Source of the DNA: a bacterium
GTDB taxonomy: Bacteria; CG2-30-53-67; CG2-30-70-394
Assembly: GCA_024278555.1 (NCBI GenBank)
Contig: JAJRSX010000154.1
Span: forward strand, 1 to 5,861
Direction of reading: 5' to 3'
DNA length: 5,861 nt
Positions 3 to 5,861 of the stretch are shown here, piece after piece. The position numbers were made by a program, and so were the translations under genes. The notes beneath the pieces were generated by a model. It was not told the DNA's origin. It did not search any database and was given only the letters and a program-made list of their open reading frames with translations. Position 1 is the stretch's first letter; every line of letters begins with the position of its first letter.

Positions 3-743
3 CTGAGCTTCCACCGCCGGGACCACTATGGCTGGCCCATCCTCCTCCAGGGGACGCTGCTGGCCGGCGCCGGCCTCCACGCACTCTTTCTCGCAGGCCG
101 CGACCTGTGGCGACGGCGCGACCCCGACGCCCTCCTCCTCGCCGCCTGGACCGGCGGCACCTTCGCCTTTGCCACGGTGGTCAACTGGACCACCTCCGCC
201 CGAGCGGTGATGCCCCTGATCCCGCCGGTGGCCCTCCTCTTCGCCCGTCGACTGGGAGAGGTCGCGGAGGGTGGGGAGGGGCCGGGATGGCGCCGCCTCA
301 CCCCGCCTCTGGTCGTCGCCGCCGCCCTCTCCCTGGCGGTGGCCCACGCGGACACCCGCCTCGCCGATGTCCAGCGCGAGGCCGCCGCGCGGATCACCGG
401 CGAGTTGCGCCCCGCCGGCGGCCAGCTCCACTTCCAGGGCCACTGGGGTTTCCAGTACTACATGGAACAGGCAGGCGCCCGCCCCATCGATTTTGAGGCC
501 CACGGCGTGATCCACCTCGGCGACTGGCTGGTCCTGCCCCTGAACAACACCGGCACCCGCACCCCGCGCCCCTTCTTCCGGCCCCAGGGGCGCCACGACC
601 TCCCCTCCTGCTCCTGGCTCGCCACCACCCAGGACGGCACCGGCGGGGCCGGCTTCTACTCCACCGTCTGGGGGCCGCTCCCCTTCGTCTTCGGGCGGAC
701 GCCGCCGGCCACCTACCTCATCTACCGCGCCCTGGGTGGATAG
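3..743 (+). CDS. Polytopic membrane glycosyltransferase, GT39/ArnT-like, C-terminal part (5' end outside window)
   Basis: The frame is open from the left edge to a TAG at 741-743, giving the last 246 residues; the start is not in the window. Hydrophobic segments lie at visible residues 13-31, 44-60, 67-81 and 100-116. Between two of them is N61-W62-T63 followed by [11 protein letters not shown], which resembles the transmembrane/loop pattern of GT-C enzymes such as ArnT and protein mannosyltransferases. The last 130 residues are a soluble tail containing [10 protein letters not shown] (147-156) and [15 protein letters not shown] (217-231). Family members take sugar from a polyprenyl-phosphate donor and add it to a lipid, protein or glycan on the periplasmic side. 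The catalytic first loop is off the window, so acceptor and activity cannot be judged. The GT2 gene 103 bp downstream on the same strand could supply its polyprenyl-phosphate sugar, but that link is inference. Confidence 0.72.
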
Positions 744-774
744 CCCCAGCGCATCGTCTGCAAACCAAAGACAG

Positions 775-791
775 AGCGGCGTCCAGCCGCT
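775..791. other. Short inverted repeat between the two + strand glycosyltransferase genes
   Basis: AGCGGC (775-780) and GCCGCT (786-791) are perfect reverse complements around a 5-base loop, 31 bp past the upstream stop codon. No T-run follows, so a terminator is not supported. In DNA this GC-rich it could be chance. It is the only structure I see in the 744-846 gap besides the C-rich leader. Confidence 0.25.
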
Positions 792-846
792 ACCATCCCG
801 TGTTCTGAGCCACCCCCTCCTCCCCCCCCTCCCGCGATCCCCATCC

Positions 847-1617
847 ATGATCAATGGCAAGCGCGTGGCGGTGATCCTCCCCGCCTACAACGCCGAGCAG
901 ACCCTGCGCGCCACCTACGCCGACATCCCGCACCTGATCGTCGACGACCTCATCCTGGTGGACGACCACTCCTCGGACCGCACCGCGGCGGTGGCGCGGG
1001 AGCTCGGCATCCACGTCATCGTTCACGACCGAAACCTCGGCTACGGCGCCAACCAGAAGACCTGCTACGCCGAGGCCCTCTCCCGCGGCGCGGAGATCGT
1101 GGTGATGGTCCACCCCGACTACCAGTACACCCCGCGGTTGATCACCGCCATGGCGTCGATGATCGCCGAAGGCGAGTTCGACGTGGTCCTCGCCTCCCGC
1201 ATCCTCGGCGTCGGCGCCCTGGCCGGCGGTATGCCACTCTACAAGTACATCGCCAACCGCTTCCTCACCTTCACCGAGAACCTCCTGGTGAGCCACAAGC
1301 TCTCCGAGTACCACACCGGCTACCGCGCATGGTCGCGGGAGGTCCTGGAGAGGCTGCCGCTGCAGCGCAACTCCGACGACTTCGTCTTCGACAACCAGAT
1401 GCTGGTACAGGCGATCCACGCCCGCTTCCGCATCGGCGAGGTCTCCTGCCCGACGAGCTACTTCACCGAGGCCTCGTCGATCAACTTCCGCCGTTCGGTC
1501 ACCTACGGCCTCGGGGTCCTGGCCACCGCCGCGGCGCTGAGGCTGCACCGGTGGGGGCTCCGCCCCTCCCCCCTCTTCGACTTCGTGCCTCAGCCGCCGC
1601 CGAAGAGGGGCGCGTAG
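847..1617 (+). CDS. Family 2 glycosyltransferase (dolichyl/polyprenyl-phosphate sugar synthase-like)
   Basis: This complete 256-residue protein has a GT-A fold signature. Residues 7-15 (VAVILPAYN) form the first nucleotide-binding strand. V38-D39-D40 begins the VDDHSSDRT nucleotide-sugar motif, and N63-LGYG-AN-K71 is the typical GT2 loop. H89-P90-D91 sits where the metal-binding DxD-type motif is expected, and [14 protein letters not shown] with a later DDFVFDNQ supplies the acceptor and base region. There is no transmembrane segment, so it probably acts at the cytoplasmic face of the membrane. Family members move sugar from a nucleotide donor to polyprenyl phosphate or a growing glycan; substrate is unknown. 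I chose ATG 847 because homology starts at once. The frame stays open back to GTG 736, but those codons look non-coding (AGC CCC AGC GCA TCG). No Shine-Dalgarno is present. The 3' end overlaps the convergent gene by 28 bp. Confidence 0.87.
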
Positions 1618-3242
1618 GCGCCATAGAGTTCGGGGTGGACGGCGCGGGCGCGTGCCATCCACGCCTCCGCCCGTTGCACCTCTCCCGCCATCGCCCAGGC
1701 GGCGGCCGCGGTGTAGGCGGCGTGGGGGGCGTGGCCTCGAACCGCCTTGGCCTCACCGTCCAGGGCCACCCGCCGCCACCCTGCCGCCGGCGGCAGGGGC
1801 CTCACCCCCGGCGGCACCGGCGGCCGAACGAAGACCAGGGCGTCGTCCGCCGCCACCAGACGCCAGGCCGGAGAGGTGAGCAACACCCCCACCAAGGGGA
1901 GGAGGCGGCCGCTGGAGCGAAAGAGGGTGGAGGTAAGCACCGTGCGTACGCCGTAGCGGGCGAGGGCCCTCTCGGTATCCACACCGCGCAGAATGCGGTC
2001 GCAGTCCTGGACGAAGGCGGCGCCGCCGAGGGCGCGGCCGTCCTGAAAGGTGGGCGGATCGCCGCCCCACGCCCAGTTCAGGTAGCCGCCGGTGTCGAAG
2101 TCGTTGTAGACCACCGGCTCCAGGTGGTGTTCGACGACGAAGCGCGCCGCCTTCCGGGGCACCCCCTGCCCCACCACCCCCACCCCCCACGGTAGCTCCC
2201 GGTCCCCCACCGCCCAACCCACGAGAAGGGCCACCACCACCGCCGCGGCGGCCGCCATGCCGCCGCCATACCGCCCTGCCACCGCCGACCAGGAGGCGGC
2301 ATCGAGCCCCTCCAGGGCGAAGGGGGCCATGGCGACCATGGCCAGGGGGACGTTGCGCACCACCACCACCCCGAGGAGGCTGCACGCGGCCACGAAGAGG
2401 AGGCGTCGACCCCGCCCAGGTCGCCCCCCCCACGCCAACACCAGGGATGCGGCGACAAAGGCGGCGTAGGGGTAAGCCACCTCCGGAAAGTTCCACACCG
2501 GCAACATCTCCGAGATGTGGCCCATGCGGCCGCCACCGGCCAGCCCGGTGGCCACGTCGGCGACAAAGCGCCACACGCCGGGCACCGCCGCCGCCAGAGT
2601 CGCCGCCACCACCGTGAGGAAGAGACGACCGCGGCCGGTGGAAAGCTGCCCCCGCCAAAAGGCCACGTGCGGCTCCACGGCAACGGAGAGGGCGACGAGG
2701 CAGAGACCAATCGTCCAGGTGACGTGGAGAGGGACCCACAGCAGGAAGAGGAGCCCCATCGCCACCACCGACCGCCGTGCCGGCCGCCGATGCCAGGCTG
2801 CAAGGAGGAGGAAGAGGGCGGCGGCGATCGGGTAGACCACGGCCTCCGGCCGCGGCACAAAGCGATCGTGGGCGAGGGCGAGGAGGGCGACCACATAGAC
2901 CAGCCCCAGGCCCCTCCGTCCCACCTCACTCCACCGCCCTAAAGGCCTGCTCAGGAGCCAACCCGTGGCCGCGCCGCAGAGGGCCACCGCCACGCAGACC
3001 CCGGTGTGCGAGAGGCTTCGCTGCAGGAGGTAGAGGAGGATCTGAAAGGGCCACTCGGTGGTGGCCACCTCCCCCCCCTGGAGGCGCCAGAGGAAGGGCT
3101 CGCCGATGTGGACGGTGCGGGCGGCGAGGAAGGCGCGACCGAAGGCGAGGTGGCTCCAGTAGTCCACCGAGACGATCCGGTGCAGCCCCGCCAAGAGGCC
3201 GCAGATCGCCGCTGCCGCTTGCCAGTAGACCGCCCTTCGCAT
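1590..3242 (-). CDS. Polytopic GT-C-like membrane protein with soluble C-terminal domain and TPR-like tail
   Basis: This 550-residue protein begins with an N-terminal membrane segment (residues 5-22) followed by V26-D27-Y28-W29-S30-H31-L32. An acidic residue in that first external loop matches the D-x-WWHL motif of a broad GT-C membrane family. TTEWPFQ (61-67) and HDRFVPRPE (125-133) fit the later 'ExL' and 'RPq' motifs of the same group. Further hydrophobic stretches lie near 81-98, 111-125, 135-149, 157-190, 206-222, 256-271, 280-310 and 328-346. The soluble part carries [12 protein letters not shown] (379-390) and FQDGRALGG (399-407), which are characteristic of these proteins. An alanine-rich helix pair (507-535) resembles one TPR unit. 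The role is probably sugar transfer or glycan export, but no member's activity is identifiable here. ATG 3242 follows AAGGGG-type bases. An in-frame GTG at 3269 would add nine unlikely residues (NCLGEGGA). Confidence 0.72.
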
Positions 3243-3247
3243 CGCGC

Positions 3248-3257
3248 CCCCTTCCCC
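3248..3257 (-). promoter_or_regulatory. Shine-Dalgarno-like purine run before the GT-C-like gene
   Basis: Reading on the - strand, GGGGAAGGGG ends five bases before ATG 3242. It is purine-rich and could pair with 16S rRNA, and it favours this ATG over the upstream GTG at 3269. The match is imperfect. Confidence 0.45.
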
Positions 3258-3376
3258 TAGGCAGTTCACTCTACTGGATCGCTCCGCGGCCAGCCACTAG
3301 GCCACCGCCGGCCACGGTCGCTCCCTCTCAACCCCGGCCCGGCGACGGAGAAGCCGAGCCGACGATCGGAGCCGCG

Positions 3377-3392
3377 AGGGGGCCGGCCCCCT
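3377..3392. other. Perfect 16-bp palindrome overlapping the decaheme gene stop codon
   Basis: AGGGGGCC is followed directly by its reverse complement GGCCCCCT, and the right end lies in the TAG stop (3391-3393) of the cytochrome gene. As RNA it could form a 6-bp GC stem with a CCGG loop, which might slow polymerase or protect the 3' end. No T-tract follows on the - strand, so it is not a standard intrinsic terminator. The rest of the 148-bp gap to the next gene (3243-3390) holds no clear promoter. Confidence 0.35.
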
Positions 3393-4893
3393 AGGGCGCC
3401 ACCGGCGTCTCGTACTCGGAGGTGGGGCCGGGGACCATGAAGGCGCGGTTGTGATCGTGGCACAGCATGCAGTAGGCGCCGTCGTGGTGGCCCACGTAGC
3501 TGCCGCTGGCGTCGAAGTCACCCGGGGCGCTGCCGTCGTGGCGGTGGTGATCTGTCTGGGTGTGGCATGTCTCGCACACATTTGCGTCGTGGGGCGGCCC
3601 GTCGGCGAGGGAGCCACTACCTGACCGGGTCGTGTTCACCACCTGTACCCCAGGGACCACACTCCCCGGGTTGGCCTCCCGCAGGAGCTTGCGGTTCGCC
3701 CCCTCGGGAAACATCGGGTCGTGGCAGTCGACGCACTGGAAAGCGTAGGTGTACTTGCCCGAGGCGTACGGGTTCTCCGCTGGGTCGGACGAGTGGGCGT
3801 TGCGGTAGCCGTGGCACCGCTTGCAGTTGGCGTTCGGGATCGGCGTGGCGAAGTTTACCTGCCCGGCACCGTCCACCACATGGCAGTACTGGCAGTTGTC
3901 GAGCAAGAGCTGGCCGTCGTGAGGCGGCTGCGGCGTCCCGCCGGTGGGGGCGAAGCCGTCGGCGTGAGAGTGGCAGGTCATGCAGTCCTCGCCGTCGTGG
4001 TGGCCCACGTAGGCGCCGTTCGCGTCGAGATCGCCCGGGGCGTCCCCGGTGCGCCGGTGGTGGCGCGTCTGGGTGTGGCAGGTCTCGCAGATGTTCTCGT
4101 TGTGCGGTGGGCCGTCCGCGAAGGAGCCGGAGCCGGTGCGGGCGGTCACCTCGATCCAGTCGAAGATGTGATCTCCCGTCACCCCGTTGGTGAAGCAGAC
4201 CCACCAGTTCAGCAGCTTGTCGATGGAGGCACCGTACTTGCGCCGCTGGCGGTCCTCGTGGGGGTTGTGGCAGTTCACGCAGTTCGCCGCCCAGCTGCCG
4301 TACTTCGTGTCCCCGAGGGCGGCCGCCGAGTGGGTCCTGACGATCGGGGCGGAGCCGAAGCCGTAGGGGGCGGGCAGGGGGTACTGGAGCCGCAGGACGC
4401 CGTTCAGGGGATCCGACGGGTCGTTCGGATCGGCATGACACCGCTGACACTGGTAGCGCATGGGGCTGAAGAAGTTGTTCGCCTCGTGGCACTTGCCGCA
4501 CCACAGGGTCGAGTCGTCCGGGTGGACCGAACCGTCCGGATTGAGGAGCTGATTGAGGTGGGGTGCTGTGAGCGCCCCAAGGGAGAAGCAACCAGGATAG
4601 TCGTTGGAGCCGATGGAGGCCGGGTCGCACGCCGAATACGAGCAGGTGGCGCACCCCACCGCCCCCAAATCCGCCATGTCGGTGACGCCGTTGCAGTCGT
4701 TGTCGATCCCGTCGGTGCAGAGCTCCGTCATCCCCGGGTGGACCGCGGGGTTGGTGTCATCGCAGTCGGTGCCGCCGCAGCTCACCGCCGTGTAGCCGTC
4801 GAAGTCCGCGTCGACACACGCCCAGACTGCCACCGGCAGGGCCATCCACGCCGCCGCCAGCGCCGCCACCATCCACCTTCCTTGAACCACCAT
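3391..4893 (-). CDS. Secreted decaheme c-type cytochrome with N-terminal MopE-like metal-binding motif
   Basis: The 500-residue product starts with a signal peptide (1-25, cleavage probably after VWA before C26). A MopE/'putative metal-binding motif' segment follows: D28-A-D-F-D-G-Y, DCDDTNPAVHPGMTE (43-57) and DGIDNDCNG (61-69). Ten CXXCH c-heme sites start at C132, C149, C205, C269, C304, C334, C357, C387, C440 and C475. More than 15 other histidines could serve as distal ligands, so bis-His low-potential hemes are likely. Residues 253-316 and 424-487 are copies, about two thirds identical by hand count. Such proteins carry electrons in the periplasm or at the cell surface; partner and acceptor are unknown. 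ATG 4893 is preceded by AGAGGAG at eight bases and starts the signal peptide. The upstream in-frame extension to 5103 overlaps the promoter and is rejected. C81-A-T-C84-S resembles a heme site lacking its histidine. Confidence 0.88.
   Translation of the reverse strand: MVVQGRWMVAALAAAWMALPVAVWACVDADFDGYTAVSCGGTDCDDTNPAVHPGMTELCTDGIDNDCNGVTDMADLGAVGCATCSYSACDPASIGSNDYPGCFSLGALTAPHLNQLLNPDGSVHPDDSTLWCGKCHEANNFFSPMRYQCQRCHADPNDPSDPLNGVLRLQYPLPAPYGFGSAPIVRTHSAAALGDTKYGSWAANCVNCHNPHEDRQRRKYGASIDKLLNWWVCFTNGVTGDHIFDWIEVTARTGSGSFADGPPHNENICETCHTQTRHHRRTGDAPGDLDANGAYVGHHDGEDCMTCHSHADGFAPTGGTPQPPHDGQLLLDNCQYCHVVDGAGQVNFATPIPNANCKRCHGYRNAHSSDPAENPYASGKYTYAFQCVDCHDPMFPEGANRKLLREANPGSVVPGVQVVNTTRSGSGSLADGPPHDANVCETCHTQTDHHRHDGSAPGDFDASGSYVGHHDGAYCMLCHDHNRAFMVPGPTSEYETPVAP
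3433..3624 (-). repeat. Triheme module, copy 2 (CETCH...CMLCH part)
   Basis: Encodes residues 424-487 of the decaheme protein: SGSLADGPPH, then CETCHTQT, then YVGHHDG and CMLCH. It aligns without gaps to residues 253-316, exactly 171 codons earlier, with 43 of 64 residues identical by hand count. Each copy is preceded by a further CVxCH site (C387 here), but with an 11-residue spacing difference. Confidence 0.85.
3946..4137 (-). repeat. Triheme module, copy 1 (CETCH...CMTCH part)
   Basis: Encodes residues 253-316 of the decaheme protein, with SGSFADGPPH, CETCHTQT, YVGHHDG and CMTCH in the same order and spacing as copy 2. The preceding heme site is C205-V-N-C-H. Between the copies lie two unrelated heme sites (C334 and C357). 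The duplication looks old, since a third of residues have changed while heme ligands are kept. Confidence 0.85.
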
Positions 4894-5069: not shown

Positions 5070-5096
5070 TGCGCCGGATGGCGCACCACCTGCGCC
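5070..5096. promoter_or_regulatory. Possible activator-binding inverted repeats upstream of the sigma-54 promoter
   Basis: On the + strand TGCGCC (5070-5075), GGCGCA (5080-5085) and TGCGCC (5091-5096) are three alternating half-sites separated by four and five bases. They lie about 110-135 bp upstream of the predicted transcription start, a usual distance for sigma-54 enhancer sites. Six-base GC palindromes are common in GC-rich DNA, so this is only a candidate. Confidence 0.35.
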
Positions 5097-5108
5097 CTTT
5101 CACCCATG

Positions 5109-5143
5109 AAAAAGCCCCCCTGCCGGGGTGCGGCAGGGGGGCT
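5109..5143 (-). terminator. Rho-independent terminator of the repeat-cytochrome gene
   Basis: A perfect 12-bp stem pairs AGCCCCCCTGCC (5113-5124) with GGCAGGGGGGCT (5132-5143) around a 7-base loop. On the - strand it is followed by a run of T. It begins 25 bases past the TAA at 5169 and separates the upstream gene from the decaheme gene, so the two cytochrome genes are probably transcribed independently. Confidence 0.9.
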
Positions 5144-5168
5144 CCCTCATGGGCGGTGGGTGTCCGCC

Positions 5169-5861
5169 TTACTTGTAGGTCACCGAGGTCGTGACCGTGG
5201 CTCCCGAGGAGGAGGTGATGGTGAGGCTGGTGTTATAGGTATTGGTAGTCACCTTCAACTCGTACCGGCCCTTGCTGCTGTTCCAGCTCATGGTGTACTG
5301 GCTCCCGCCGTACGTCACCGTGAGTGTGTCGGCGCCGTTACTGCCATCCGTGGCCTTGACCGCAAGCTCGTTCTTACCCGAGTCGTACTGTGATTTGCTG
5401 ACCGAGATGGTCCCACCACCGGTCCCGCCGCCACCACAGGTGGCGCCGGTCAGGTACACGGAGACCGCGTCAAACACCTCCTGCGACACCCGGCCCGCCT
5501 GGCCCGGGGGATGCGCCAGCCACTTGCTGTTGCTGCAAGAGACCTTGTTCGAGTTGTCACCGTGACAGCCGAGGCAGGTGGTCTGCAGCTCTGTCGCCGG
5601 GTCAATGGTGCCGCCGCCCCCGCCACCGCCGCACGTGGCGCCGGTCAGGTAGAGGGAGACCGCGTCGTACACCTCCTGCGACACCCGGCCCGCCTGGCCC
5701 GGGGGATGCGCCGTCCACTTGCTGTTGGTGCAGGAGACCTTGTTCGAGTTGTCACCGTGACAGCCGAGGCAGGTGGTCTGCAGCTCTGTCGCCGGGTCAA
5801 TGGTGCCGCCGCCCCCGCCACCGCCGCACGTGGCGCCGGTCAGGTAGAGGGAGACCGCGTC
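5169..5861 (-). CDS. Repeat-type c-cytochrome with polyglycine linkers and beta-rich C-terminal domain, C-terminal part (5' end outside window)
   Basis: The frame is open from the right edge to TAA at 5169-5171, giving the last 230 residues. Two copies of a 65-residue unit are seen. Each has a CLGCH c-heme site (C31-H35, C96-H100), KVSC(S/T)NSKW, then AHPPGQAGRVSQEV, DAVS(L/V)YLTGATC and a seven-glycine linker. The histidine of AHPP (H52, H117) is the obvious candidate distal ligand. C44 and C109, and the ATC cysteines C12 and C142, are not heme cysteines and could pair as disulfides. Residues 152-230 are rich in Thr, Ser and Val with alternating hydrophobics (TLTVTYGG, LTITSSSGATVT), suggesting an Ig-like beta sandwich of a kind often at the C-terminus of secreted proteins. 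It likely carries electrons outside the inner membrane; the signal peptide and repeat number lie off the window. Family name unknown to me. Confidence 0.8.
   Translation of the reverse strand, partial: DAVSLYLTGATCGGGGGGGTIDPATELQTTCLGCHGDNSNKVSCTNSKWTAHPPGQAGRVSQEVYDAVSLYLTGATCGGGGGGGTIDPATELQTTCLGCHGDNSNKVSCSNSKWLAHPPGQAGRVSQEVFDAVSVYLTGATCGGGGTGGGTISVSKSQYDSGKNELAVKATDGSNGADTLTVTYGGSQYTMSWNSSKGRYELKVTTNTYNTSLTITSSSGATVTTSVTYK
5472..5861 (-). repeat. Tandem 195-bp repeat, two full units (5472-5666 and 5667-5861)
   Basis: The two units are in phase with the reading frame (65 codons) and differ at 6 of 195 positions by hand comparison. The differences change three residues (F/Y, L/T, S/T) and include one silent change. 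The remnant of a further unit is visible from about 5430 to 5471, where the array gives way to the C-terminal domain. The right edge falls inside the array, so more units probably follow. Confidence 0.93.

Follow-up and report, generated by a model that had tools for sequence, protein, structure and literature searches.

Tethered mono-heme units at the C-terminal end of a predicted secreted c-type cytochrome

What kind of protein carries single hemes on strings of polyglycine, and how might it move electrons? The locus that raises this question lies at one end of the window, the whole stretch of 5,861 bp that was analysed, which is an entire contig (G000:C132) of a 3.06-Mb draft genome assembled into 211 contigs. 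On its minus strand, translation gives a frame of 230 amino acids that is open at the contig edge (5861..5172, stop at 5169-5171), in the order DAVSLYLTGATC, GGGGGGGTIDPATELQTTCLGCHGDNSNKVSCTNSKWTAHPPGQAGRVSQEVYDAVSLYLTGATC, a second 65-residue copy, GGGGTGGG and an Ig-like domain (Table 1).

The repeat and the C-terminal domain

The repeat was detected independently by TRF as a 195-bp (65-codon) tandem array at 5424-5861, with 2.2 copies and 95% matches. The two full copies differ by seven codons, four of which are replacements. The original prediction had described a 65-residue unit with one CLGCH, one downstream histidine, two extra cysteines and seven glycines, and all these elements were recovered by translation and TRF. 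It had also placed the heme beads at 5430-5861: the repeat is real, but the window holds only two hemes, the array ends at 5436 and a non-heme Ig-like domain follows down to 5172.

Table 1. Features of the bead gene and of the gene next to it in the window
Feature	Position	Strand	Basis
12-residue C-terminal tail (DAVSLYLTGATC) of a further heme unit, clipped by the contig end	5826..5861	-	36/36 bases shared with the end of the next copy; TRF array reaches 5861
Linker GGGGGGGTIDPA	5790..5825	-	translation
Heme unit 1, complete	5631..5789	-	profile match, E 1.8e-25
Heme unit 1 sites	CLGCH 5757-5771; putative distal His 5706-5708; extra Cys 5730-5732 and 5631-5633	-	
Linker GGGGGGGTIDPA between heme units 1 and 2	5595..5630	-	translation
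Heme unit 2, complete	5436..5594	-	profile match, E 6.4e-25
Heme unit 2 sites	CLGCH 5562-5576; putative distal His 5511-5513	-	
Linker GGGGTGGG	5412..5435	-	translation
C-terminal Ig-like beta-sandwich domain, ~80 residues	5172..5417	-	match range takes in the last two linker Gly
Probable terminator of the bead gene, strong hairpin and U-tract directly 3' of the stop	5095..5165	-	RNA fold -55.9 kcal/mol, z = -7.35
Neighbouring gene, secreted-looking protein with a MopE metal-binding motif and then a c7-type multiheme region, separate from the bead protein	3391..4893	-	PF11617 E 1.2e-13, PF14522 E 6.4e-13

Since the window is a complete contig, the bead gene was broken by the assembly, inside its own repeat, and the N-terminus, the signal peptide and the true number of units are not in the window. 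In the AlphaFold model of the 230-residue frame (three sequences), the Ig-like domain has eight strands with a pLDDT of about 70-80; Foldseek matched it to Ig-like folds only at E about 1e-3 to 1e-2, and homologues by sequence were found in the bead proteins L073 (E 8e-17), L078 (9e-9) and L074 (2.6e-6). The hairpin that follows the gene was not listed by a pattern scanner; being terminator-like, it suggests that the gene after it on this strand is probably transcribed separately.

The unit as a small cytochrome domain

We extracted 43 distinct copies of the unit, of about 50 residues each, from loci found in whole-genome searches with a protein query and unit profiles. All 43 contain one CXXCH followed by a histidine at +15 to +19, which stands exactly at +17 in 38 of them, and a histidine at +17 accompanies 1 of the 202 other CXXCH motifs of the same proteins. 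No conserved methionine was found in the 43 units. The conserved histidine 17 residues after CXXCH is thus the probable second axial ligand, and with such bis-His ligation the heme would probably be of low potential. The two extra cysteines occur together in 37 units and are both absent from six, a single one never being seen (Fisher 1.6e-7, a value that overstates independence because the sequences are related). This joint absence arises in at least two settings: it is seen in the first units within one group of paralogues, and again in unit three of a 1474-residue protein of the same genus (genome G001). Because the extra cysteines are always paired or both missing, a disulfide is implied.

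From these patterns we infer that the unit is a bis-His mini-cytochrome that binds one c-type heme via CXXCH and is clamped by a disulfide; the heme loading, ligation, fold, location and function proposed for the beads, like the identity of the missing N-terminus, are inferred from the observed sequence, repeat, homology, cysteine pairing, invariant histidine and architectures of relatives. An AlphaFold model of one unit without heme (five sequences) reached a pLDDT of 58.8, the units of the 230-residue model were likewise low, values too poor to give a heme geometry, and Foldseek returned only meaningless matches for the model of the unit.

No Pfam or NCBIfam family reached its cut-off for the unit. 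Among the class I families (PF00034/PF13442), Cytochrome_CBB3 (PF13442) scored 14.1 bits for a cut-off of 27 and matched only one of the 25 units scanned (E 0.035). Sequence and profile searches of PDB chains likewise gave no significant match between the unit and a solved structure, so that the earlier proposal of a unit without a named family agrees with these profile searches. Matches to complement factor H and to scFv chains in the PDB sequence search were rejected, since they reflected the cysteine pattern or the Gly-Ser composition only.

The unit is carried by three proteins of its own genome. In the first profile sampling it was present in 6 of 386 genomes (own genome included), all six belonging to the class of the window. 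Elsewhere its frequency was low, with 7 carriers among 290 genomes sampled around a deltaproteobacterial genome from Lac Pavin, 11 among 395 in a phylum sample, of which three are weak partial matches, and 6 among 46 in one class. Since the G459 and G568 phylum scans covered an identical sample, they were counted once; G663, G730, G800 and G1044 gave weak partial matches (E about 1e-3), which were left out of the count. A match in G033 was rejected as a unit carrier, its frame containing no CXXCH.

Tethers, architectures and gene neighbourhood

At least two monoheme c domains on flexible low-complexity linkers are found in the window protein, L072, L073, L014, L078 and L100, and the repeat and linkers of the window thus bear out the idea of a mono-heme domain repeated on flexible tethers. 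Seven glycines form the core of the tether in the window. Between neighbouring units of complete or near-complete relatives, the linkers are TTSGTGGTTTGGTTTGGTTTVDAA (L072, twice, with GGTTT repeats), GGTGGSGGGGTGGGTGGTIDVN (L073, GGTGGSGGGG), SGATTPPPTTTPPPTTTTAPP (L014, PPPTTT), SGGGGTVDAAK (L078, SGGGG) and a 16-residue S/N/G-rich stretch (L076). Such different sequences in one role suggest selection for flexibility. In the PDB sequence search, these natural linkers matched the engineered Gly-Ser linkers of scFv. By a simple chain estimate, the 12-residue linker of the window has an rms end-to-end span of about 21 A. Flexible linkers of about 12 residues would let hemes meet without holding them at conducting distance, which makes a wire-like conduit unlikely and leaves collision-based transfer as the physical option. 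After the last tether, the bead-bearing multiheme proteins of L073, L074, L076, L077, L099 and L100 terminate in short acidic tails (EDDD, QEDDDD, GDDD, GDSDD, KDDD).

Tethering is not the only way in which the module is used: in the class relatives L005, L006, L023 and L024, two units stand back to back, 2-9 residues apart, where a large multiheme protein ends. Two of these are paralogues in the genome of the window (L005 2-1993 on the plus strand, L006 1390-3222 on the minus strand) and end in two untethered units. A PPIase-like gene follows the multiheme gene of L006, and L005 also encodes (2316-2843, plus strand) a small secreted-looking protein of KCGEGKCGDAMKEKKEG-type repeats, rich in Cys and Lys, beside a membrane-protein gene.

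Full-length relatives carry one to three units on G/T/P-rich tethers, mostly off a compact multiheme core; a closely packed CXXCH core is present in L073, L072 and L088. Briefly, L072 consists of a signal sequence, an Ig-like domain, a seven-heme core and three tethered units. L073 is built in the same way with two units, its core matching the MtrC/MtrF-like family PF22113 (1.1e-9) and cytochrome c7 (PF14522). In G767 (L088/L078/L098) the order is signal sequence, unit, seven-heme core, unit, G-linker, unit, G-linker and Ig-like domain; this C-terminal order (beads, then Ig-like) is that of the window, and the Ig-like domains are homologous. The signal sequences at the start of L072, L073 and L088 look by eye to be of the Sec type, with no lipobox seen. 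L014/L015 place one or two units ahead of an octaheme-type cytochrome (TIGR04315-like, below cut-off), and in L079/L080 the unit terminates lipoprotein-like proteins with class-I/cbb3-type c domains. The 1474-residue protein of G001 combines a signal sequence, 12 MopE motifs, four class-I-like c domains and three units, the third of which is degenerate. Finally, the 22-heme frames of L081 and L082 (G955, G972) contain a heme stretch and, after it, one bead unit and two F5/8-type-C (discoidin-like) domains, which appear to be carbohydrate- or surface-binding tails on a multiheme cytochrome.

On G001:C138, a homologue of the window gene at 3391-4893 adjoins the gene of the bead-bearing 1474-residue protein; this homologue has 14 MopE motifs ahead of the same heme region. 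The G001 cluster also encodes two other multiheme proteins, one a 12-heme PF22113 cytochrome and the other a 5-heme protein, together with barrel-like and PPIase-like proteins. The window's own genome has a comparable cluster on contig C27, in which the last gene encodes a signal-peptide MopE protein that runs off the contig. This cluster (L039 257-7020) includes a 5-heme lipoprotein-like cytochrome, a barrel-like protein, an NHL-repeat protein, an 11-heme cytochrome and a SurA-like PPIase, and looks like an outer-membrane porin-cytochrome conduit. Elsewhere in the window are a GT2 glycosyltransferase (736-1617, plus strand) and a large membrane protein (1590-3269, minus strand) that matches no Pfam family; a membrane protein of similar appearance also flanks the bead locus of G001.

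The 5' part of the bead gene was sought in its own genome with the repeat DNA, the G001 protein and the L073 protein. No repeat DNA was found on other contigs of that genome by DNA search. The ends of contigs C27 and C34 emerged as candidates, neither provable: C27 ends within the MopE ORF mentioned above, which matches the G001 protein at 59-60%, and the end of C34 holds another candidate signal-peptide gene. By analogy with the relatives, the missing N-terminal part most likely comprises, besides a signal peptide, further domains for electron transfer, which would be either a compact multiheme core or MopE motifs combined with class-I-like c domains.

Comparison with known systems and proposed mechanism

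Heme domains arranged as beads on a string are not new. Fernandes reportedly published this concept for PgcA in 2023. It was also published for PgcA in Nash 2024. PgcA (GSU1761) of Geobacter sulfurreducens is a 'hemes on a string' protein for which structures, SAXS data and a mechanism of tethered diffusion are available (PMC11520253, PMC12307469), and it was put forward in 2024 as the first member of a class of tethered-heme electron carriers. In PgcA the domains are separated by (PT)x tethers and tumble freely, the chain extending to 180 A, and electrons are passed on to domain III (PMC11520253; reviewed in PMC12307469), which is the one that meets ferric oxide (PMC11520253). Relatives outside Geobacter have 3-14 hemes (PMC11520253), and tandem repeats in extracellular cytochromes that lack PT motifs had been pointed out earlier by Zacharoff et al. 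2017 (PMC5732950). Apart from the PgcA papers and the review that discusses them, our literature search on monoheme domains in tandem or on tethers yielded no relevant work.

The window protein resembles PgcA in having several monoheme c domains (~60 residues in PgcA) on flexible low-complexity linkers, and domain III of PgcA is bis-His. It differs in its polyglycine linkers, and PgcA domains I and II are His-Met. The proximal and distal ligands of PgcA are 27 (Met, I/II) or 32 (His, III) residues apart, whereas this spacing is 17 in the unit (15-19 in all copies). Moreover, neither a multiheme core nor an Ig-like domain is described in the PgcA papers (PMC11520253, PMC12307469). The PgcA domains 8QJ6, 8QJG and 8QK0, whose presence in the searched set is assumed, were not listed to E 10 when profiles A1 and A5 were compared with PDB chain sequences. 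Outer-membrane cytochromes of the MtrC/MtrF-like (PF22113) and c7 (PF14522) families provide the core of full-length relatives such as L073; these families do not cover the beads or linkers, and no core is visible in the window. Tethered monoheme domains are thus of a known kind, and at the sequence level the unit itself belongs to no named family and has no detectable homology to PgcA.

We consider it probable that the window encodes the C-terminal end of a secreted c-type cytochrome whose tethered mono-heme arms serve electron transfer by tethered diffusion. Each unit of about 50 residues would bind one c-type heme through CXXCH with the histidine at +17 as second ligand and a disulfide clamping the fold, and the seven-glycine tethers would let two or more heme domains move independently. 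The Ig-like domain may cap the chain, perhaps for surface attachment or secretion. The beads would then be mobile arms, taking up or handing over electrons as they collide with the core, neighbouring proteins or an extracellular acceptor, through tethered diffusion over short range as shown for PgcA. Signal peptides in relatives, together with neighbouring cytochromes of the outer-membrane type, make a role in electron transfer at the surface or outside the cell likely, in line with the cell-surface role of the original prediction.

The extended conduit or charge-storing chain, also put forward at the outset, has fared less well. That the whole protein is a long chain of identical single-heme beads acting in this way at the cell surface now seems unlikely. 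The array does run off the contig with almost identical copies, so that many more are possible, and PgcA paralogues with 3-14 hemes are reported (PMC11520253). Nevertheless, whole-genome searches found no pure bead chain among full-length relatives, which have at most three units, joined to a compact multiheme core, class-I c domains or MopE/TSP3-type motifs, and flexible linkers do not keep hemes at conducting distance. A capacitor role, conceivable in principle, would need many units, for which we have no evidence. We give still less credence to the reading of the beads as mainly mineral- or partner-binding modules with a heme that is structural or used only for docking: the position of the unit at the N- or C-terminal edges of relatives' cores, and its place beside the F5/8-type-C domains of L081/L082, would suit such modules, but the occurrence of CXXCH and a second histidine in every unit suggests redox use.

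Two further readings concern the identity of the parts. The unit might belong, as a divergent form, to a small cytochrome family that already has a name (PgcA domains, a NapB-like module or class I c553), which we hold to be rather improbable, a little less so than the bead chain. The hemes of the diheme cytochrome NapB are bis-His, and the profile similarity to NapB (E 0.044 and 0.014; 1JNI) shows the CXXCH-x16-H spacing, with a histidine at +17, in the aligned segment. Class I c553 and PF13442 share a single CXXCH near the start and a similar sequence opening (phmmer E 0.43 for c553). Against this, the NapB and c553 similarities are all non-significant (0.014 at best), the unit stays under the Pfam cut-offs, and the ligand spacings of PgcA are not those of the unit. 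NapB, known as a periplasmic nitrate reductase subunit, has no tethered repeats, and class I cytochromes are larger and Met-ligated, whereas the unit is shorter and has no conserved methionine; the NapB similarity is a weak lead for the fold only. The other reading is a sub-case of the preferred one, in which the missing N-terminus is a MopE/class-I-cytochrome region as in the G001 protein, possibly the MopE gene of C27. This is possible but doubtful. The G001 protein has that architecture, C27 ends inside the related signal-peptide MopE ORF, C27 and C132 both end inside repeats, and a MopE and c7 gene of the same kind adjoins the bead gene in the own genome and in G001. However, the two loci differ in gene order, the G001 protein lacks a C-terminal Ig-like domain and has a degenerate third unit, the end of C34 offers a rival signal-peptide gene, and no sequence overlap joins C27 and C132.

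Returning to the tethered-arm cytochrome that we favour, we suggest tentatively, and at somewhat less than even odds, that the unit represents an undescribed mini-cytochrome family (~50 residues, CXXCH-x16-H, co-varying disulfide) placed on varied tethers of rigid multiheme cores in several distinct bacterial lineages, a new hybrid of 'wire plus swinging heme arms'. It would be a second domain family, apparently unrelated to PgcA in sequence, that is used in the same way. With linkers that differ by lineage (polyglycine, GGTTT, PPPTTT), this parallel suggests that flexible heme arms were selected convergently, and the hybrid, with its rigid core and its arms, offers a test of whether the reach of a surface cytochrome is extended by tethered diffusion.
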